64,000 nucleotides of DNA from Pigmentiphaga sp. NML030171 (GTDB taxonomy: Bacteria > Pseudomonadota > Gammaproteobacteria > Burkholderiales > Burkholderiaceae_B). The stretch is taken from assembly GCF_002188635.1 (NCBI RefSeq), contig NZ_NINX01000036.1, positions 124,001-188,000 of the forward strand, given 5' to 3'. The position numbers and the translations under genes are program-made. Below are positions 37,493 through 47,249 of the stretch, piece by piece. Each line of letters opens with the position of its first letter. The stretch's first letter is position 1. The notes beneath the pieces were generated by a model. The model did no database searches and was not told where the DNA came from. It worked only from the letters and a program-made list of their open reading frames with translations.

Positions 37493-38533
37493 TCAGTACA
37501 GCGACTTGCCGCTGGCGTCCTTGATGTCGGACTTCCACAGCGAACGGATCTGCGTCGTCACCGCGTCGGGCAGCGCCACGTAGTCCAGTTCCGAAGCGGA
37601 CTTCTTGCCGTTCTTGAAGGCCCAGTCGAAGAACTTCAGGACTTCGGCGCCTTGCGTCGGCTTGTCCTGAGCCTTGTGCATCAGGATGAAGGTGGCGCTG
37701 GTGATGGGCCAGCTCTTCTCGCCCGGCTCGTTGTTCAGGATCACGCCCATGCCCGGCGCGCTCTTCCAGTCGGCATTCGCGGCGGCGGCGGCGAAGGCGG
37801 CCTCTTCCGGCTGGACGAACTTGCCGTCCTTGTTCTGGACCTGGCCGTGCGCCAGCTTGTTCTGCTTGGCGTAGGCGTATTCGACGTAGCCGATGGCGCC
37901 GGGGAACTGCTTGACGTAGTTGGCGACGCCTTCGTTGCCCTTGCCGCCCTGGCCGGCGGGCCACTTGACGGCCTTGCCTTCACCCACGGACGACTTCCAG
38001 TCGGCGGAAACCTTGGACAGGTAGTTGGTCCAGCCGAAGGTCGTGCCCGAACCGTCCGAGCGGTGGACGACGATGATGTCGGCAGCAGGCAGGTTCACGC
38101 CGGGGTTCAGCTTGGCGATGGCCTCGTCGTTCCACTTCTTGACCTTGCCCAGGTAGATGTCGGCCAGCAGCGCGCCGGTGAACTTCAGTTGGCCGGGCTG
38201 GATGCCTTGCAGGTTGACCACGGGGACGATGCCGCCGATCACGGCCGGGAACTGGACCAGGCCGTTCTTGGCCAGGTCTTCACCGCTCATCGGATCATCC
38301 GACGCGCCGAAATCCACGGTCTTGGCGATGATCTGCTTCTGGCCGCCGCCCGAACCGATGGACTGGTAGTTCACCGTGTTGCCCGTGGCAGCCTTGTAGT
38401 CCGAGGCCCACTTGGCATAGATGGGATAGGGGAACGACGCGCCGGCACCGGTGATGTCGGCAGCGTGCGCGGACAACGCGGCAACGCCCAGCACGACGCC
38501 CACCGACACTTGCTTGAATACGAGTTTGAACAT
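37493..38533 (-). CDS. pstS: Phosphate-binding periplasmic protein
   Basis: The 346-residue protein has a Sec signal peptide ([22 protein letters not shown]) and the PstS phosphate-binding segments: [41 protein letters not shown] and [22 protein letters not shown] at 38533 has AGAGGACCTGCAA upstream; a further in-frame start 36 bp upstream is less likely. A Pho box lies 57 bp before it. It is the promoter-proximal gene of pstSCAB. Confidence 0.97.
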
Positions 38534-38590
38534 TTGCAGGTCCTCTGCTTTGTGGGAGGTAAAACTCACGACGGCGTCAGATTACGTAGC

Positions 38591-38642: not shown

Positions 38643-38660
38643 AGAATCATTAACGATTCT
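38643..38660 (+). promoter_or_regulatory. Candidate Fur box upstream of the AraC regulator
   Basis: AGAATC and GATTCT form a 6-bp inverted repeat around ATTAAC, within an AT-rich run that continues CATTCAT. It resembles Fur boxes, lies 13 bp before the ATG of the AraC gene, and fits with the iron role of the operon. Confidence 0.55.
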
Positions 38661-38673
38661 CATTCATAAAAAA

Positions 38674-39549
38674 ATGATGCCTGCTCCCGTGCCCGAACAA
38701 TGGCATGTCCCCGCGATGACCGCCTCGCTGTCCATCAGCGGTGGCATATTGCGCATGGATCAAGACCAGGCCATTACCGAGCAGAACGACGCCGGCTTGA
38801 AGCTGGTCCTGCTGCTGGGCGGGGAACTGCGTTATTCGATGCAAAAACACCGCCAGATAGGTCTCAAGGGCCCCGCGGTCCACCTCAGCCTGAGCCGCAG
38901 CCCGTTCATGGTCAGCCATGCCTTCCATGCCGCCTCACCGCTGCGCTACGTGGCCGTGCGCATGCCCGAGGAAGCGCTGCAGGAAGGCCTGGACCTCGAC
39001 ATCGGGCGGCATGCCCGCCAGCGCAACGGCACCGACACCCCGTTTTTCCTCGACCGGCAGGCCAACCGGATCCTGCAGGCCCTGGGCCGGCAATTGCTGG
39101 CCTGCCCCCTGCGCGGGAACCTGCGTGATCTCTACCTGGCCGGCAAGGCGCTGGAATTGACCGCCACCGTGCTGGCCGGCCTGGAACTGACTCCCGCCGC
39201 CAGCCCGGCCCAGGCCGATGCGCTCATGCTGTCGCCGCGCCAGCTCGACGCGCTGCACGAGGCCCGCGCGCGGCTGCTCGAACAGCTTTCCGATCCGCCC
39301 GGCCTGGCGGCCCTGGGTCGCCAGGTCGGCCTGAACGTCACGACGCTGACGCGGGGGTTCCGGGCCGTGTTCGGCTGCAGCGTCTATCAATTCGTGCGCG
39401 ACCAGCGCCTCGAACTCGCCTATCGCATGCTGGCCGCCGGCCGATGCACCGTGGCCCAGGCCGCGTTTGCCGCCGGCTACAGCGATTCGCATTTCTCCAA
39501 GGCTTTCCAGAAACGTTTCGGCATCGCGCCGCGCGGACTGCGCCGCTAG
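38674..39549 (+). CDS. AraC-family regulator of siderophore uptake (PchR/AlcR type)
   Basis: The 291-residue protein has an N-terminal sensing domain (LLGGELRYSMQKHRQIGLKG, LSLSRSPFMVSHAF) and a C-terminal AraC DNA-binding domain (LAALGRQVGLNVTTLTRGFR, QFVRDQRLELAYRMLA, AFAAGYSDSHFSKAFQKRFG). PchR and AlcR relatives bind ferric siderophore in the cell and activate the adjacent receptor and transport genes. It starts at ATG 38674 (a second ATG follows directly) and is divergent from pstS. Confidence 0.87.
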   Translation: MMPAPVPEQWHVPAMTASLSISGGILRMDQDQAITEQNDAGLKLVLLLGGELRYSMQKHRQIGLKGPAVHLSLSRSPFMVSHAFHAASPLRYVAVRMPEEALQEGLDLDIGRHARQRNGTDTPFFLDRQANRILQALGRQLLACPLRGNLRDLYLAGKALELTATVLAGLELTPAASPAQADALMLSPRQLDALHEARARLLEQLSDPPGLAALGRQVGLNVTTLTRGFRAVFGCSVYQFVRDQRLELAYRMLAAGRCTVAQAAFAAGYSDSHFSKAFQKRFGIAPRGLRR

Positions 39550-39622
39550 CCCGCGGATACGCCCGATCGCCAGATTGATACCGGCAACCGCCAATTCGTC
39601 CCCGGCGCCCTCCCTAGAATTG

Positions 39623-39639
39623 TTGAGATTGATTCTCAA
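39623..39639 (+). promoter_or_regulatory. Fur box upstream of the TonB-dependent receptor
   Basis: TTGAGA and TCTCAA form a perfect inverted repeat with TTGAT between, giving a sequence close to Fur boxes of related bacteria. It ends 23 bp before the GTG start of the receptor gene, so iron-bound Fur should repress the operon. Confidence 0.72.
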
Positions 39640-39662
39640 TTCAAGAAAGGGAGAGGGTCTCC

Positions 39663-41798
39663 GTGGATATCCGCAAGCCATTTCATTCCCGGCCTGGCGC
39701 CTTCCGACCCGGCCCGGCCCGCACCGCGCTGGCCTCGGCCATCATGCTGCTGGGCGCCGGTGTCCATGCCCAGGCCGTCCCCGAGCCGCCGGCCAGCATG
39801 CTGCCCGCGGTGACCGTCACCGGCGGCGCGGACACGCCGTCGTCGTTGCTCAAGACGTCGCAGTCCGCCAAGGAAACGCCGCAGTCGATCACCGTCATCG
39901 ACCGCGAGCGCATGCAGCAGCAGAACCTGCAGACGCTGGAGGAAGTGCTGCAGCAGGCGCCCGGGATCACCGTCCAGCCCTATCAGCAGCTCACCACGGG
40001 CTACTACGCCCGTGGCTTCAAGATCGACTCCTTCCAGCAGGACGGCGTGCCCGTGCTCATGGGCCAGACGGCCGGTGCGCCGGAAGACATGGGCATGTAC
40101 GAACGGGTGGAAATCCTGCGCGGCGCCAACGGCCTGCTCCAGGGCACGGGCAACCCGGCCGCCACCGTCAACCTCGTGCTCAGGCGGGCGCCGCGGCGGT
40201 TCGAGGCGCGCGGCGCGCTGACCGCCGGCAGCTGGAACCGCTACCGCGCCGAAGCGGACGTGGGCGGCCCGGTGAACGAAAGCGGCAGCCTGCGCGCAAG
40301 GCTGGTGGCCAGCCATGAGGACCGCGATTTCTTCTACGACGTGGCAGGCCAGAAGTCCACCAATCTGTACGGCACGGCTGAACTCGACCTGGGCCCCGCC
40401 ACCGTGCTGTCGGTGGGTGTCCATCACCAGCGCATCCGTTCCATCACCAACATGGCCGGGGTTCCCTTCTATCGCGACGGCCGCGATATCGGCCTGCCGC
40501 GCTCGACCTACCTGGATGTCGCCTGGGACCGCTTCGACTGGGACAACACGCGGCTGTTCGCCGGCCTGGAGCATGCGTTCGACAACGGCTGGACCGCCAG
40601 GCTCAACGTCAACCACCTGACGGGCGACGCCGACCTGAAATATGCCGGCGCCAATGGCGCGGTCGATCCCGCAACGGGCACCGGTCCGCGCCTGACCGGC
40701 GGCGCCTATGAATTCGAGAACCGCCAGACCAGCGCCGACGGTTACCTGAACGGCCCCTTCACCCTGTTCGGCCGGCGGCACGAGGCGCTGGTCGGGATCA
40801 ACCACCTGCGCACCAGCACCGAGCAGTTCTCCGCCAGTTTCCTGGCGCCGATCGGCGTGCCGGTGGACGTATGGAAATGGGATCCGCGCAGCGTGCCCGA
40901 ACCAGCGGTCGGTCCCTACGCGTCGCGCGGGCCGACGCGCATGGTCCAGTCGGGCATCTATGCGATGGGCCGGTTTTCGCTGGCCGATCCTCTCAAGCTG
41001 ATCCTGGGGGGACGGGTGAGCCGATGGAAGCAGGACACCGCCTCCGCCAGTTCCCGGCTCAGCAGCGAGTTCACGCCCTATGGCGGCCTGGTCCTGGACA
41101 TCACGCCGCAGTGGGCGCTCTACGCCAGCTACGCACAGGTCTTCCAGCCCCAGACACAGACCACGTGGGAGGGCGGCATGCTGGATCCGGTCCAGGGAAG
41201 CAACCGGGAAGTCGGCATCAAGGGCGGCCTGCTGGAAGGGCGGCTGGATGCCAGCCTGGCCCTCTTCAACATCCGGCAGCGCAACCGCGCGCAGACCGAC
41301 CCCGCGCATCCTTGCGCGGGCGCAGTCTGCTACTACATCGCTGGCGGCGAAGTCGAGAGCCGCGGGATCGAGGCGGAAGTCAACGGCCGGGTCATGCCGG
41401 GGCTGGACCTGTCGCTGGGCTATACCTACAACGCCACGGAGTACCTGAAGGATGCTCAGTCGCAGGGACAGCCCTTCGCCCGCTTCACGCCCAAGCACAT
41501 CTTCAGGCTCTGGACGAATACCGTACTGCCCGGAAACGATGGCCGGCTCAGCGCGGGCGTGGGCATCCAGGCGCAAAGCGCCTACACCGTGCAGTCCGGC
41601 GGCGTGACCCTGCGCCAGGGCGGCTATGCCCTGGCCAGCCTGCGGATCGGCTACCGCATCAACAAACACATGAGCGCGGCGCTGCACGTCAACAACCTGT
41701 TCGACCGGCGCTACTACCAGAGCCTGTCCGGCACCAGTTGGAACAACCGCTACGGCGAACCCCGCAGCGTGGCGCTGACGCTGCGCATGGAGTACTAG
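39663..41798 (+). CDS. TonB-dependent siderophore receptor
   Basis: The 711-residue outer-membrane protein has a signal peptide (cleavage near GVHAQA), a plug domain (KETPQSITVIDRERMQQQNL, VEILRGANGLLQGTGNPAAT) and a 22-strand barrel ending in LTLRMEY with the terminal aromatic residue. There is no N-terminal signalling (STN) extension, so regulation goes through the AraC gene rather than a sigma factor. It imports a ferric siderophore that I cannot name. The GTG start at 39663 follows AAAGGGAGAGGG. The next gene begins 1 bp after its stop. Confidence 0.92.
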   Translation: MDIRKPFHSRPGAFRPGPARTALASAIMLLGAGVHAQAVPEPPASMLPAVTVTGGADTPSSLLKTSQSAKETPQSITVIDRERMQQQNLQTLEEVLQQAPGITVQPYQQLTTGYYARGFKIDSFQQDGVPVLMGQTAGAPEDMGMYERVEILRGANGLLQGTGNPAATVNLVLRRAPRRFEARGALTAGSWNRYRAEADVGGPVNESGSLRARLVASHEDRDFFYDVAGQKSTNLYGTAELDLGPATVLSVGVHHQRIRSITNMAGVPFYRDGRDIGLPRSTYLDVAWDRFDWDNTRLFAGLEHAFDNGWTARLNVNHLTGDADLKYAGANGAVDPATGTGPRLTGGAYEFENRQTSADGYLNGPFTLFGRRHEALVGINHLRTSTEQFSASFLAPIGVPVDVWKWDPRSVPEPAVGPYASRGPTRMVQSGIYAMGRFSLADPLKLILGGRVSRWKQDTASASSRLSSEFTPYGGLVLDITPQWALYASYAQVFQPQTQTTWEGGMLDPVQGSNREVGIKGGLLEGRLDASLALFNIRQRNRAQTDPAHPCAGAVCYYIAGGEVESRGIEAEVNGRVMPGLDLSLGYTYNATEYLKDAQSQGQPFARFTPKHIFRLWTNTVLPGNDGRLSAGVGIQAQSAYTVQSGGVTLRQGGYALASLRIGYRINKHMSAALHVNNLFDRRYYQSLSGTSWNNRYGEPRSVALTLRMEY

Positions 41799-41799
41799 G

Positions 41800-43479
41800 G
41801 TGCCGGCTCCGCACTGGCCCCTGCGCACCGGCCTGGCCGTCCTGGGCGCCCCCGCGGCCGCCATCGGGCTGGCGATCGCCATCGCGCGCCGGGCGCCGCT
41901 GGACGATGCGCTGGACCGGCTGTATGCCGGCATGTTCATCGGCGTGCTGGCGCAGTTGCTGTTGCTGGGCGGCAGCCTGCTCCTGGGCACACGCGCAGCC
42001 GTGCCCATGCGCCGCGCCGTGGCCGTCACCCACGCGTGGGCCGGCATGATCGTGGGCCTCGTGCTGTTCGTGGTCTGCCTCACCGGCGTGTTCGCCGTGC
42101 TCAAGCAGGAAGTCCGCTATTGGGAGATGCCATCCGAGCGGCAGGCCCCCGCCCCGCGACCCGACCTGGACGCCCTGCTGCATGCGGGCCAGGCGCGATT
42201 CGGCGATGCCGCGTCGCTGATGATCCAGTTGCCGGACGGCCTGCGGCGCCATGCCATCGTGGCCTCCGCCGGCGGCCGGCCGGCCGCCGGCCAGGCCGCG
42301 CTGGTCCTGCGCGCCGACGATGCCCGTCCCATGCCCGCCACCCGTGGCGGCGCGGCGGAGCTGCTGGTCACGCTGCACAACACCCTGCACGCGGGCTTTC
42401 CGGGGCGGGTGGTCGTCAGCCTGTTCGGCTTCGCGCTGGCCTTCCTGGTCGTGGGCGGTGTGGCCAACCATCCCCGCCGGTCCCCCGGACTGCTGCGCCT
42501 GCGCATCGGCGCGGATGTCCGGACGCTGGCGCTGGACGTCCACAAGCTGCTGGGACTCTGGCTGTCGCCGCTCCTGCTGCTGATCGCGGTGACGGGCATC
42601 TTCTCGGGCCTGGGCGCGCTGGCGACCGTCAACCTGGCGCCCCACGCCTTCCCCGACGACCCGCGCCGGGCCATGCAGGCGCTGATGGACAATGCTTCCT
42701 TCCCCGCGCTGGGGCAGCCCGCCGCCATGTCCAGCCTGAACGCCCTGGTCGACAGGCACCGGCAGGCCCATCCCGGATTCCAGGTGGAAAGCGTCGCCAT
42801 CCGGCACTGGGGCGATGCACAGGCCTACGCCACCCTGCGCGGCCACGGCGCCGGCCAGTTGAGCACCGGCGTGTTCGAGCGCTTCCACTACCGCCTGCGC
42901 GACGGCGCGCTGCTGCGCCACGACAGCGCGGCGCAGCGTGGGCCCTGGACCCAGGCGTTCATCGCCATCCAGCCCCTGCACTTCGCGCAGTACGGCGGCA
43001 CGGCCAGCCGCTGGCTGCATGCGGCGGGCGGCCTGGCCGCCGCGCTGCTGGCCGCCTCCGGCACCTGGCTCTGGCTGCGGCGGCGGGCAACGCCGGAGCG
43101 TCCCCTGGCCTGGCCGAGGCGGATCGCACAAGGCGTCTGCCTGGGGTTGACGCTCTCGTGCAGCGTGCTCCTGGCCATGACCTGCCTGACGCCGGACGCC
43201 ATGCCGGACCGGCCGGCGCTGCAAGCGTGGGCCTTCTGGGGCTCCTGGCTGGCGTCGGCCGCCGGCTTCGCCTGGCCCGGACACGGCGGCCGGCGCACCA
43301 CGGCCGCGCTGCGGCTTGCCGGCCTGCTGCTCTGGCTGGCGGCCATCGCCGACCTGGCGCGCCAGGCCGGCCACCCGCTGGCCGCCCAACTGCCGGCGCT
43401 GGCCTTCGACCTCCTGCTGATCCTGGCGGGCACCCTGACGTGGCGGCTCGCCCGTTTTTCCTTTCGCCATCCATCATGA
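41800..43479 (+). CDS. PepSY-associated membrane protein of the siderophore cassette
   Basis: The 559-residue protein has a TM-rich N-terminus, then a PepSY_TM arrangement: THAWAGMIVGLVLFVVCLTG, LHNTLHAGFPGRVVVSLFGF, LDVHKLLGLWLSPLLLLIAVTGIFSG and further helices to the C-terminus. Related proteins act with siderophore receptors and may reduce or release iron at the inner membrane. The GTG start at 41800 is directly after the receptor stop, and its own stop overlaps the cupin gene (ATGA), so three genes are translationally coupled. Confidence 0.82.
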   Translation: MPAPHWPLRTGLAVLGAPAAAIGLAIAIARRAPLDDALDRLYAGMFIGVLAQLLLLGGSLLLGTRAAVPMRRAVAVTHAWAGMIVGLVLFVVCLTGVFAVLKQEVRYWEMPSERQAPAPRPDLDALLHAGQARFGDAASLMIQLPDGLRRHAIVASAGGRPAAGQAALVLRADDARPMPATRGGAAELLVTLHNTLHAGFPGRVVVSLFGFALAFLVVGGVANHPRRSPGLLRLRIGADVRTLALDVHKLLGLWLSPLLLLIAVTGIFSGLGALATVNLAPHAFPDDPRRAMQALMDNASFPALGQPAAMSSLNALVDRHRQAHPGFQVESVAIRHWGDAQAYATLRGHGAGQLSTGVFERFHYRLRDGALLRHDSAAQRGPWTQAFIAIQPLHFAQYGGTASRWLHAAGGLAAALLAASGTWLWLRRRATPERPLAWPRRIAQGVCLGLTLSCSVLLAMTCLTPDAMPDRPALQAWAFWGSWLASAAGFAWPGHGGRRTTAALRLAGLLLWLAAIADLARQAGHPLAAQLPALAFDLLLILAGTLTWRLARFSFRHPS

Positions 43480-43916
43480 CCCGACACAAACTCCCCGCCC
43501 CCGCCGGCGACGCCTCGCGCCAGCCCCGGCTTTTCGCGCTGTCCTCTTCGCTGGCCGTCCTCCAGGCCGACGCGACCGTCCATCTGATGCCCTTCCAGCG
43601 GAATGGCCTGCCGCGGGCCGGCTGGATCATGGGCATCAAACCCATTTCCGATACCGCCTCGGTCCACGGCAACCACTGGGAGCGGCATCCGCGCGGCGAC
43701 GAAATCCTGACGCTGCTGGAGGGATCGCTGCGTGTCGTCCTGGCCGCGGACGCGGGCGCCGAATGCGAACTGAAAGTCGTCGCGGGCGAATCCCTCGTCG
43801 TTCCCCAGGGATGGTGGCACCGGCTGGAGGTAGGCCAGCCGGGCCGCCTGATGTTCGTCACTCCCGCCACCGGCAGCGAGCACCGCCTGCACCGCCCCCA
43901 CGACCAGGAAGACTGA
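43476..43916 (+). CDS. Cupin-fold protein of the siderophore cassette
   Basis: This 146-residue protein has a cupin core: GNHWERHPRGDEILTLLEGS (with His residues of motif 1) and GESLVVPQGWWHRLEVG (motif 2). A metal site is likely from the His/Glu pattern. The function in iron uptake is unknown; it may bind a siderophore breakdown product or regulate the system. ATG at 43476 overlaps the upstream stop; the MFS gene follows after 1 bp. Confidence 0.82.
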   Translation: MTRHKLPAPAGDASRQPRLFALSSSLAVLQADATVHLMPFQRNGLPRAGWIMGIKPISDTASVHGNHWERHPRGDEILTLLEGSLRVVLAADAGAECELKVVAGESLVVPQGWWHRLEVGQPGRLMFVTPATGSEHRLHRPHDQED

Positions 43917-43917
43917 C

Positions 43918-45159
43918 ATGCACACCCATTCCCCCGCCTCCACTACACGGCGCGGCGCCACGCTGCTGCAATGGCCCATGATCGCCTGCCTGTACGCTTC
44001 CCAGGGCATCCCCTTCGGGCTCGCGATGGAAGCGCTGCCGGCCATCCTGCGCGGCCAGGGCGCCAGCCTCGGGGCCCTGGCCTACCTACCCCTGGTAAGC
44101 CTGCCCTGGGTACTGAAATGCGGCTGGGCACCCATCGTGGACAACCACTGGTCGCCACGCCTGGGACGCCGGCGCAGCTGGATCCTGCCCATGCAGGCGC
44201 TGGTCCTGGCGCTGCTGCTGGGCGTCATGGCGATCGGTGTCACGCAGGCCACCCTGCCCTATCTGCTGGCGCTGTCGGTGGCCGCGTCGCTGGCCAGCGC
44301 CACGCAGGACATCGCCACCGACGGCCTGGTCGCCGAACGGTTCGAACCCCATGTGCTCGGCACCGCCAACGCGGTCCAGGTCGCCGGCACCATGATCGGC
44401 TTCTTCTACGGCGGCCCGGTGTTCCTGATGGCCTATGCGCGCGTCGGCCTGACGGGCGCGCTGCTGCTCCTGGCCCTGCCCATCGCGCTCAGCCTGGCGC
44501 TGGTCGCCGCCTGGCGCGAGCCCGCGTCCCTCTCCGATCGATGGCCGCGCCCGCGGCAGGCCAGCCTGTGGCGCTTCCTGCGGTCAGGCCGGCATGCCTG
44601 GGCCCTGGTCGCCGCCGCCTTCCTGTCCGCCGTGACCGTGGTGGCCTGCCACGGACTGTCCAAGCTGCTGCTGGTCGATGCCGGCTGGGCGCTCGAGAAG
44701 ATCGGGCAGGTGGGCATGGTCGGCGGCGCAGTCACCATCGTCCTGGGATGCGGAGGCGGCGCCTGGCTGGTGTCGCGGCTGGGCACCTGGCCGGTGTTTT
44801 TCACCGGCATCGCCTCGGCGGGCGTGGCGGCCGCGGTCTGGACCGCGCTGGCGTGGACCTCGCCCGCGCTGCCCGCCTACGCGGTCTGGGTGGCGACGCT
44901 GCTGACCAGCTTCGGCGCCGGCAGCGCATCCGTCGCGATGATGACCGCCGCCATGCGCTTCGCCCACGCGCGCGACCAGGCCGGCACCGACATGACCGCC
45001 GTGCAGAGCATGCGTGACCTGGGCGAGATGGCCGCGTCCTCGTCGCTGATGGCCCTGGCCGCGCTGGCGGGCTACGGCGGCAGCTTCATGGTGGGCGTCG
45101 GGCTGGCGCTGGCCACGCTGGTACTGACGCCCGCGCTGCTGCGGTCGCGCCGGGCCTAA
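43918..45159 (+). CDS. RhtX/FptX-type MFS siderophore permease
   Basis: This 413-residue, twelve-helix transporter has MIACLYASQGIPFGLAMEALPAIL and ATQDIATDGLVAERF, segments characteristic of the RhtX/FptX family, single-protein inner-membrane importers for siderophores such as rhizobactin 1021 or pyochelin. It completes an uptake cassette without an ABC transporter. Its stop overlaps the convergent ppk gene by 4 bp. Confidence 0.87.
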   Translation: MHTHSPASTTRRGATLLQWPMIACLYASQGIPFGLAMEALPAILRGQGASLGALAYLPLVSLPWVLKCGWAPIVDNHWSPRLGRRRSWILPMQALVLALLLGVMAIGVTQATLPYLLALSVAASLASATQDIATDGLVAERFEPHVLGTANAVQVAGTMIGFFYGGPVFLMAYARVGLTGALLLLALPIALSLALVAAWREPASLSDRWPRPRQASLWRFLRSGRHAWALVAAAFLSAVTVVACHGLSKLLLVDAGWALEKIGQVGMVGGAVTIVLGCGGGAWLVSRLGTWPVFFTGIASAGVAAAVWTALAWTSPALPAYAVWVATLLTSFGAGSASVAMMTAAMRFAHARDQAGTDMTAVQSMRDLGEMAASSSLMALAALAGYGGSFMVGVGLALATLVLTPALLRSRRA

Positions 45160-47249
45160 CCGGCTGTTTCGTCGAAACCGCCCAGCGCCTTCATCAGGTG
45201 CGCATGGAGGTTGAACGGCCGGCGGCGCGATCGCACCCGGACGTAATCCCCCGAGGGCTGCTGCTGCCAGGCCAGCTGGTTGTCGCACAGGGCGAAGGTG
45301 AAGGATTCATCGATCACCCGCTTCTTCAGGGCCGGGTCGAATATGGGGAAAGCGACCTCGACCCGGCGGAAGAAATTGCGGTCCATCCAGTCGGCGGACG
45401 CCAGGTAGACCATCTCCTGGCCGCCGTTCAGGAAGTAGAACACCCGCGAATGCTCCAGGAAGCGGCCGACGATGGACCGCACGGTGATGTTCTCCGACAG
45501 CCCGGGGACGCCCGCGCGCAGGGTGCATACGCCCCGCACCACCAGATCGATGCGCACGCCGGCGCGGCTGGCCTTGTACAACTCCTCGATTACCGAGGGC
45601 TCGAGCAGCGAGTTCATCTTGGCCATGATCCGCGCCGGCTTGCCCGCCCGCGCATGGCGTGCCTCGCGGCGGACCAGCGCCACCATGGTCTCGTGCAGCG
45701 AGAACGGCGCCTGCAGCAGGCATTTCAGGTGGCGGCGCGCGCCCAGTCCGGTCAGTTGCGAGAAGATTTGCTCCATGTCCTCGCACATGCGCGCATCGGC
45801 GGTGAACAGGCCGAAGTCGGTGTAGAGGCGCGCGGTGCTGGGATGGTAGTTGCCGGTGCCCAGGTGGCCGTAGCGGCGGATGCGGCCGCGCTCATGACGC
45901 AGCACCAGGGCCATCTTGGCGTGGGTCTTGTGCCCCACCACGCCGTAGACCACGTGCGCGCCCACCTCTTCCAGCCGGGCGGCCCAGTTGATGTTGGTCT
46001 GCTCGTCGAAGCGTGCCATCAGTTCCACCACCACGGTCACTTCCTTGCCCGAACGGGCGGCCGCCAGCAGCAGGCGCATCAGCTCGGAGTCCTCGCCGGT
46101 GCGGTAGATGGTCTGCTTGATGGCGACCACGCCGGGATCGGCCGCCGCCGCCGTCAGGAAATCGATGACCGGCTGGAACGACTGGTAGGGATGGTGCAGC
46201 AGCCGGTCCTGCGTGGCGATGGCCTTGAACAGCTCGTCCGGCGTCAGGTTGTTGCGGTCGAAGGGGGACGGAATGGCCGCGCGGAACGGCGGGAATTTCA
46301 GCTCCGGCCGGTTGATGCCGTTCACCAGCTGCATCAGCCGCGCCAGGTTGACCGGCCCGTCCACCCGGTAGGCGTCGGCGGGCGTCAGGGAGAATTCCTT
46401 GAGCAGGAAGTTCTCGAGCTCCACCGGGCTGGAGTCGGCCAGCTCCAGCCGGACGCCGTCGCCGAAATGCCGCTGCGTCAGCTCGCCTTGCAGGGCCTGG
46501 CGCAAGTTGGTGATTTCCTCGTCATCGACGAACAGGTCGCTGTTGCGCGTCAGGCGCCACTGGTAGCAGCCGTCCACCGTCATGCCGGGGAACAGGTCGC
46601 CCACGAAGGCCTGCATGAACGAGGTCAGCATGACGTAGCCGTGAGGGTGGCCGGACAGCTCGGGCGGCATCTGCGTCAGGCGCGGCAAGGCGCGGGGCGC
46701 CTGCACGATGGCGATGGCGGCATTGCGGCCGAAGGCGTCGCGTCCCGACAGCTGGACGGCGAAGTTCAGGCTCTTGTTGAATACCCGCGGGAAAGGATGG
46801 GCCGGGTCGAGGCCGATGGGCGTCAACAGCGGCATGACGTCCAGCCGGAAGACCTCGTGCGCCCACGCCCGCTGCGCCGGGGTCCAGCTCTGCGCCATGT
46901 GCAGCACGATGCCCTCGGCCTGCAGCCGCGGCAGCACCTCGCGGTTCAGCAAGGCATATTGGCGCTCGACCAGCGCATGGGCGGCCTCGGATACACGCTG
47001 CACGACCTCGGCCGGCGTGCGGCCATCCAACCCGCGCGCACCGGGATTCTGCCGCACCTGTTCATGCAGGCTGGCCACGCGGATCTCGAAGAACTCGTCC
47101 AGGTTCGATGCGACGATGCACAGGAACCGCAATCTCTCGAGCAGGGGCGCCCGGTCGTCCTCGGCCAGGGCCAGCACTCGTTCGTTGAACTTGAGCAAGG
47201 CAAGCTCGCGATTCAGGAACAGGTCTTTGGCAGGCAATCTGGCAACCAT
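45156..47249 (-). CDS. ppk: Polyphosphate kinase 1
   Basis: The 697-residue enzyme has the PPK1 domains: FLNRELALLKFNERVLALAE at the N-terminus, LLTPIGLDPAHPFPRV, AIKQTIYRTGEDSELM, and the phosphohistidine region VGHKTHAKMALVLRHE followed by HLGTGNYHPSTARLYTDFGL. It makes long-chain polyphosphate from ATP. ATG at 47249 is 135 bp from the divergent ppx. A Pho box lies between. Confidence 0.97.
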   Translation of the reverse strand: MVARLPAKDLFLNRELALLKFNERVLALAEDDRAPLLERLRFLCIVASNLDEFFEIRVASLHEQVRQNPGARGLDGRTPAEVVQRVSEAAHALVERQYALLNREVLPRLQAEGIVLHMAQSWTPAQRAWAHEVFRLDVMPLLTPIGLDPAHPFPRVFNKSLNFAVQLSGRDAFGRNAAIAIVQAPRALPRLTQMPPELSGHPHGYVMLTSFMQAFVGDLFPGMTVDGCYQWRLTRNSDLFVDDEEITNLRQALQGELTQRHFGDGVRLELADSSPVELENFLLKEFSLTPADAYRVDGPVNLARLMQLVNGINRPELKFPPFRAAIPSPFDRNNLTPDELFKAIATQDRLLHHPYQSFQPVIDFLTAAAADPGVVAIKQTIYRTGEDSELMRLLLAAARSGKEVTVVVELMARFDEQTNINWAARLEEVGAHVVYGVVGHKTHAKMALVLRHERGRIRRYGHLGTGNYHPSTARLYTDFGLFTADARMCEDMEQIFSQLTGLGARRHLKCLLQAPFSLHETMVALVRREARHARAGKPARIMAKMNSLLEPSVIEELYKASRAGVRIDLVVRGVCTLRAGVPGLSENITVRSIVGRFLEHSRVFYFLNGGQEMVYLASADWMDRNFFRRVEVAFPIFDPALKKRVIDESFTFALCDNQLAWQQQPSGDYVRVRSRRRPFNLHAHLMKALGGFDETAG

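Follow-up and report, generated by a model that had tools for sequence, protein, structure and literature searches.

A predicted ferripyochelin uptake cassette carrying a cupin gene at the pstS-ppk junction of Pigmentiphaga

A compact set of iron-uptake genes in the genome of Pigmentiphaga sp. NML030171 raises two linked questions: which siderophore it serves, and what a small cupin is doing among its transport genes. The cassette occupies positions 38674-45159 of the window, by which we mean the whole stretch of 64,000 nucleotides that was analysed (contig NZ_NINX01000036.1 of assembly GCF_002188635.1, positions 124,001 to 188,000 of the forward strand), in a genome of 5.86 Mb. Judged by sequence comparison, it takes its place among the fptABCX operons for ferripyochelin uptake and lacks genes for biosynthesis. 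The explanation that we prefer overall, and hold to be probable though not by much, is that of a transport-only operon for ferripyochelin piracy, in which the cupin would be a partner of FptX that handles imported ferripyochelin. All five genes are on the plus strand, in the order that a sequence-only reading of this DNA had proposed:

38674 to 39549, plus strand: araC, a PchR-like AraC-family regulator of 291 amino acids (aa) (HTH_18/HTH_AraC match)
39663 to 41798, plus strand: fptA-like gene for a ferripyochelin TonB-dependent receptor of 711 aa (TonB receptor and Plug; PDB 1xkw match)
41800 to 43479, plus strand: putative fptBC fusion, a PepSY_TM/PiuB membrane protein of 559 aa (PepSY_TM, E 4e-42)
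43476 to 43916, plus strand: single-domain cupin of 146 aa (Cupin_2; AlphaFold model)
43918 to 45159, plus strand: fptX-like gene for an inner-membrane permease of the RhtX/FptX family, 413 aa (MFS_1; TIGR02718 above cut-off)

The tight packing claimed for the genes after the receptor is borne out by measurement, with 1 bp between the receptor and PepSY genes, an overlap of 4 bp between the PepSY and cupin genes, and 1 bp between the cupin gene and that of the major facilitator superfamily (MFS) permease. Ratios of non-synonymous to synonymous substitution (dN/dS) against three congeners are 0.12-0.29 for each of the five genes.

Among solved structures the receptor matches that of the ferripyochelin receptor FptA best (1xkw, E 4.3e-233), with the ferripyoverdine receptor as runner-up (9e-110). 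Identity to FptA is 54% for the window receptor and 52-62% across the receptors of the cupin cassettes described below. The pyochelin pocket of FptA is given, in a passage of PMC9774294, as Phe114, Leu116, Leu117, Met271, Tyr334, Gln395 and Trp702; the aligned residues of the window receptor are Y Q L M Y Q W, so that five of the seven pyochelin-contact residues are identical, and the complete cupin-cassette receptors all follow the pattern Y-[Q/L/F/M]-L-M-Y-Q-W (36/36). The pockets of four operons that lack a cupin read YLLMYQW (Burkholderia cenocepacia), FLLMYQW (a Klebsiella plasmid and genome G384) and YNLMYMW (genome G061). The full set occurs in none of nine comparison receptors, one of them spanning just some of the sites. 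Five tandem copies beside cassettes of genus g4 (an arbitrary label, like the other genus numbers) read H[H/R]LMYNW, an Ensifer receptor reads SMGFYNW and two diverge further, the readings including HHLMYNW, SHATNSP and HNGYYHT. The Ensifer locus (L095) has a receptor at 39% and no other cassette gene at the threshold used. Given this FptA-like sequence and a mostly preserved pocket, the receptor very probably takes pyochelin or a closely related analogue as its ligand. Uptake of alcaligin or rhodotorulic acid was also considered, the FauA model coming first and the FhuE model third in NCBIfam; it is rejected because both scores are far under their cut-offs (461 versus 900 bits for FauA, 401 versus 666 bits for FhuE) and FptA is far ahead among solved structures.

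The two membrane proteins agree with such an assignment. The PepSY protein, whose PepSY_TM region (PF03929) scores 145.4 bits against a cut-off of 28.8, is 40% identical to the PepSY protein of G384, and has a weak sequence match (E 0.005) to PDB 7abw, which we take to be FoxB. In the Klebsiella operon, annotated as TonB receptor, small hypothetical protein, PepSY protein and RhtX/FptX transporter, the small gene is taken as FptB from its place in the known fptABCX order; it matches residues 8-61 of the window PepSY protein (39%), and the PepSY gene that follows matches residues 78-494 (38%). In G061 a separate gene of 94 aa likewise matches residues 5-61, with identities of 42% for the FptB part and 38% for the PepSY part. 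Because its N-terminus matches the gene in the FptB position and its remainder the PepSY gene, the window protein looks like an FptB-FptC fusion, and hence a normal part of fpt systems. The idea that the cupin itself is FptB was ruled out, as the FptB-position genes code for 82-94 aa of a different kind that match the PepSY N-terminus. The permease passes the RhtX/FptX model TIGR02718 (364.3 bits, cut-off 356.15) and is 55% identical to the FptX-like permease of G384. The Klebsiella operon itself lies on a conjugative plasmid of Klebsiella pneumoniae (L094:2905-7948), beside radical S-adenosylmethionine and cytochrome P450 genes and a VapBC pair, and without a cupin.

Nothing that we searched for suggests that the host makes its own ligand. 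Its genome has no condensation domain (found by the same search in 4 of 14 control genomes), no IucA/IucC (found in 2 of the 14) and no PchB above cut-off; the only match to ATP-binding cassette (ABC) genes near the window cassette is to the ATPase part, at 29-30% identity, which falls short of a pchA-pchI cluster. The claim of the sequence-only reading that the siderophore is foreign, there being no biosynthetic gene, thus extends to the whole genome for these markers, and a native siderophore is ruled out on the same evidence, other enzyme routes lying outside the search. An enterobactin-like non-ribosomal peptide synthetase (NRPS) cluster of P. aceris is described, in a passage of PMC6788695, as absent from the other Pigmentiphaga genomes then available. 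In G384, by comparison, the surroundings of the receptor, PepSY and permease genes include a PchB above cut-off, an aryl-AMP ligase that narrowly misses its cut-off and two NRPS genes; judged from these marker genes rather than gene by gene, this cluster is of the pyochelin type.

The cupin was sought in 268 genomes of the bacterial family at a threshold of E 1e-20 and was found in 37, of which 25 belong to g4, six to g1, three to g37 and a single one to each of g41, g31 and g12. Thirty-six of them, from five genera, share the order araC-fptA-(fptBC)-cupin-fptX, in which the cupin immediately precedes fptX; four of these cassettes run into a contig end within the permease gene. By the starts chosen, the cupin and fptX genes overlap in 25 of 35 loci and are at most 6 bp apart in the other 10; in the window the gap is 1 bp. 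A separate draw of 151 family genomes gave eight with an over-cut-off RhtX/FptX gene, and the cupin adjoins it in seven of the eight, G061 being the other. The fpt operons of B. cenocepacia, G061, G384 and the Klebsiella plasmid lack the cupin; beyond the family, relatives of the permease in G272 and G384 likewise have no cupin nearby. The sequence-only reading, which held that the cupin is not a standard part of fpt/rht systems, was therefore right for these four operons and wrong for the cupin genomes, nearly all of which carry it inside the cassette. No cupin genome has a PchB above cut-off (0/37). Wider searches scored only a few candidates per genome and returned little: at the level of the order, 3 of 399 genomes for the cupin (E 1e-20; one of them partial and without other cassette genes near) and 4 of 399 for the permease (E 1e-80); at the level of the class, 1 of 369 for the permease (E 1e-90), the window's own genome. 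Plasmids gave 17 distant matches to the cupin, none covering 80% of the query, and viral contigs none.

The cassette PepSY gene, by comparison, is present in 7 of the 36 cassettes, namely all six of Pigmentiphaga and that of G063. The G063 copy (L052:9236-10459) is FptC-like and lacks the N-terminal third, including the FptB part, matching only from residue 186; cupin and fptX are intact there.

The cupin scores 28.9 bits against Cupin_2 (gathering cut-off 27.2), a model that 27 of 28 members match. Metal ligands in cupins follow recognizable motifs, and by these E69, H71, E76 and H115 are putative ligands; all four are invariant in the 37 cassette cupins and are common to seven non-cassette cupins compared with them. 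K55, V63 and H64, on the other hand, are invariant in the 37 and occur in none of the seven, where positions 63-64 fall in an alignment gap; G53 occurs in one of the seven as well. The AlphaFold model, built on an alignment of 28 of the 37 cupins, has a predicted local distance difference test score (pLDDT) of 87. As no hydrophobic N-terminal stretch is seen by eye, the cupin is presumably cytoplasmic.

How might such a protein serve the operon? Ferripyochelin released by neighbours would enter the periplasm by way of the FptA-like receptor and the cytoplasm by way of the FptX-like permease, and there it would also switch on the PchR-like regulator. An optional periplasmic ferric reductase would be provided by the FptB-FptC fusion, while the cupin would be a constant, closely spaced cytoplasmic partner of FptX, whose Glu-His-Glu-His metal site could bind imported ferripyochelin and release the iron, or oxidize and inactivate the ligand. 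Passages in PMC10866019 suggest that FptC reduces ferripyochelin in the periplasm and that PchHI imports the iron. The cupin may stand in for this FptC/PchHI route, which is mostly missing from cupin cassettes: where FptC and an adjacent PchHI pair are lacking, ferripyochelin would enter intact through FptX and its iron would be freed in the cytoplasm.

The contrast in ABC genes on which part of this scheme leans was drawn with the pair beside the G384 receptor as reference. ABC-exporter genes adjoin all four cupin-less operons: those of B. cenocepacia match both members of a PchHI-type pair at 56-58%, G384 is the source of the query, the Klebsiella plasmid has one full-length ABC gene (39%) and a short PchH-like piece, and the two ABC genes of G061 (32-39%) are maybe unrelated exporters. 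The flanks of cupin cassettes gave only partial ABC matches, in 9 of 37 stretches, at 25-33% identity and mostly to the ATPase part, with 40% in one short piece; the comparison covered the stretches beside the cassettes, with short flanks in some contigs, PchHI elsewhere in those genomes lying outside the search.

That the cupin is a cytoplasmic metal protein which frees iron from imported ferripyochelin, or processes it, is a tentative proposal that we would advance with reserve. Two points lower its odds and those of its more specific form: just two of the four operons used for comparison show the ABC-gene contrast clearly, and part of a review calls fptBC and pchHI apparently non-essential for uptake (PMC5681537). 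In that more specific form the cupin would be a cytoplasmic pirate enzyme that opens or destroys the ligand of ferripyochelin for its iron, replacing FptC/PchHI and preventing a build-up of foreign pyochelin, which we think unlikely.

Several observations weigh against our preferred explanation. The FptBC fusion is intact in the window and in other Pigmentiphaga, so that the cupin is not simply its replacement there; the non-essentiality reported in part of PMC5681537 also counts against it, and ferripyochelin is no more than a putative ligand of the cupin. G061 has a cupin-less cassette and no over-cut-off PchB (of the two cupin-less genomes examined, only G384 has one), so that the cupin is not a strict tracker of non-production, and the PchHI pair is clear in no more than half of the cupin-less operons. 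Fold searches with the cupin model score many unrelated cupins equally and point to no function, the match to Ni-quercetinase (Z 11.3) being level with storage proteins and others. Pocket position Leu116 is Gln in the window receptor. In G050 (genus g12; L053:7852-9247) an araC-cupin pair stands without receptor or permease, an arrangement that a regulatory role would explain no less well. Lastly, the receptor tree is a quick search without bootstrap, with five outside receptors of which three are on long branches. In favour of our explanation, it places the cupin-cassette receptors on one side of a branch with support of 100 in the Shimodaira-Hasegawa-like approximate likelihood ratio test (SH-aLRT), within which a subclade (SH-aLRT 99) joins the PepSY-bearing cassettes to Advenella, where no PepSY match was found; we read this as a single gain of the cupin with a later loss of fptBC.

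The pair in G050, which could be a cassette remnant, leads to another reading, in which the cupin assists the PchR-like AraC protein in regulation or sensing: it would hold or present ferripyochelin, or buffer the inducer, so that the cell can sense a foreign siderophore which it does not itself make. An araC gene is present in all 37 cupin genomes, and AraC-family sensor domains share a barrel fold with cupins. Against this, the cupin gene adjoins fptX and not araC, the invariance of its four putative metal-ligand positions would be more expected of an enzyme or metal binder, and two cupin-less operons (L096 and L094) have araC alongside anyway; we consider a regulatory role rather improbable, and return to the cupin as a handler of imported ferripyochelin.

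Control of the cassette itself was examined through the regulator and its upstream sites. The window AraC is 36% identical over 266 aa to that encoded beside the NRPS genes of G384, and three sites were noted:

38652 to 38666, plus strand: Fur-like block aacgattctcattca, 15 bp, upstream of araC, with 13 consecutive bases invariant in 6/6 Pigmentiphaga genomes
39568 to 39593, plus strand: weak candidate regulator site, a direct repeat of CGCCA spaced 21 bp, present by eye in the alignment of 6/6 Pigmentiphaga genomes; a predicted function
39625 to 39643, plus strand: Fur-like near-palindrome TGAGATTGATTCTCA upstream of the receptor gene, matching the Fur consensus at 11/19

The best Fur match upstream of araC in the window sequence is 13/19, a score reached at three positions in 64 kb; its register is not kept in five relatives, whose own best matches are 10-12/19. 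The score of the receptor site is reached at 51 window positions, and single Fur-like sites therefore rest on conservation and not on score. Such conservation is found between araC and the first receptor gene, where all 36 complete cassettes have a Fur-like site of 11-14/19, often the palindrome GAGAATAATTCTC. Within the direct-repeat site, a GATAnCGG core occurs between araC and the receptor gene only in the six Pigmentiphaga genomes; it was not found at that place in other genera, and two g4 loci (L148 and L151) that match elsewhere were set aside. Fur control as first proposed thus keeps its conserved sites at araC and the receptor, albeit with consensus scores weaker than had been implied, and we regard control by Fur and AraC as likely.

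A narrower doubt concerns the ligand, since the receptor might take not pyochelin but an analogue, either another hydroxyphenyl-thiazoline siderophore or a quinolone-iron complex. The limited identity to FptA noted above, in the window as across the cupin cassettes, and the changed pocket positions L116Q and F114Y would allow this, as would the report, in part of PMC10846271, that FptA and FptX of Pseudomonas aeruginosa also serve the iron complex of the Pseudomonas quinolone signal (PQS-Fe). At five g4 loci (L132, L134, L135, L136 and L054) a second FptA-like receptor, 53-55% identical to the window receptor, lies in tandem upstream of the first, with an altered pocket (His at 114, Asn at 395), perhaps for another siderophore. 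The remaining five pocket residues of the window receptor are nevertheless identical to those of FptA, Y114 is found also in B. cenocepacia, a pyochelin producer, and the receptor for enantio-pyochelin matches far less well (3qlb, E 8e-37), so that we judge such an analogue an improbable substitute for pyochelin itself. A further stretch of the host genome (G000:C8:25411-27158, L002-L004), 67-76% identical to the receptor gene at the DNA level, probably encodes a second receptor related to it.

How did the cassette come to lie where it does? Its flanks, both identified by models above cut-off as the sequence-only reading had named them, are:

37493 to 38569, minus strand: pstS, left flank, outside the cassette and divergent from araC (NF008171 and TIGR00975 above cut-off)
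45156 to 47249, minus strand: ppk, right flank, outside the cassette and convergent with the MFS gene, their stops overlapping (TIGR03705 above cut-off)

The sequence-only reading proposed a comparison among Bordetella and Achromobacter genomes; the genus is in fact Pigmentiphaga, and the other two belong to its family. The proposed check for presence or absence at this junction was run within Pigmentiphaga, where five of ten other genomes have the identical cassette order at the identical junction; the cassette is therefore no product of chance, and it is not in all relatives. Protein identities in those five are 74-95% for the cassette genes versus 92-99% for pstS and ppk. In G073, G096 and G116, the species whose ppk is most divergent (77-84%), pstS stands directly by ppk with short spacers; G135 was left out of the comparison, having no ppk match at threshold. 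In G155 (L045:4208-4758) a 0.7-kb spacer is a scar holding the last 182 aa of a pyridoxal-phosphate (PLP)-dependent enzyme, 84% identical to a gene of G151, which suggests that a block once sat at the junction and was then deleted. G151 (Pigmentiphaga humi; L047:10509-15453, minus strand) has a five-gene block between cassette and ppk, encoding a LysR protein, a TctC-type binding protein, an amidohydrolase, an Asp/Glu racemase and a PLP-dependent enzyme. It appears that DNA has entered and left this junction repeatedly. A cassette ancestral at the pstS-ppk junction of Pigmentiphaga, and lost where absent, would agree with the loss that the G155 remnant shows to be possible; it sits poorly with the empty junctions of the three genomes with the most divergent ppk, and with 31 loci of other genera that have neither pstS nor ppk in their fetched stretches, and we think it has little likelihood. 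The simpler reading, judged from the congener junctions, is insertion of the cassette between pstS and ppk, and the earlier proposal of an insertion into a phosphate-related block is thus upheld by an empty junction in three congeners and a scar in a fourth, as far as junction comparison goes.

The weakest of the readings makes the cupin gene a metabolic passenger of the operon that takes no part in siderophore use. It can draw on a large and functionally diverse fold and on six other loci in family genomes where similar cupins have none of the other cassette genes near, and is nonetheless most unlikely given a place kept in 36 of 37 genomes of five genera while PepSY is mostly absent, the residues K55, V63 and H64 that set cassette cupins apart from the seven others, and a dN/dS of 0.12-0.29 in Pigmentiphaga. 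A cupin enzyme that frees iron by opening or destroying the ligand of ferripyochelin would be, to our knowledge, the first dedicated to siderophore iron release, and the open-licence literature, judged mainly by title, yielded no title on a cupin in pyochelin uptake. Little is known, according to a passage in PMC10846271, about how ferripyochelin gives up its iron, and parts of that source and of PMC9774294 indicate that the step is poorly known even in P. aeruginosa; a small soluble protein that accompanies FptX in this family's pyochelin-type cassettes, most of which have no FptC, is a concrete candidate for it and one that would be easy to test. The cupin would also mark those relatives of Pigmentiphaga that may steal pyochelin from Pseudomonas and Burkholderia.

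Compared with fptABCX of P. aeruginosa and Burkholderia, the cassette has the same receptor, FptB/FptC parts and permease in order, with a PchR-like regulator and Fur-like sites; it differs in joining FptB and FptC in one protein, in the cupin gene before fptX, and in having neither a pchHI-like pair beside it nor biosynthesis, most relatives of this subtype lacking fptBC as well. Like the PepSY_TM ferrisiderophore reductases PiuB, FoxB and FptC, the window PepSY protein has a PepSY_TM region above cut-off, and it is distinguished from them by an FptB-like N-terminal extension. The MFS permease is above the family cut-off like other RhtX/FptX permeases (TIGR02718), and in the sampled family a cupin is co-encoded in seven of the eight genomes with such a gene. 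With Cupin_2 proteins bearing a WExHPxGDE-type motif the window cupin shares E69, H71, E76 and H115, whereas K55 and V63-H64 are found only in the cassette cupins, which also differ by their fixed place before fptX.

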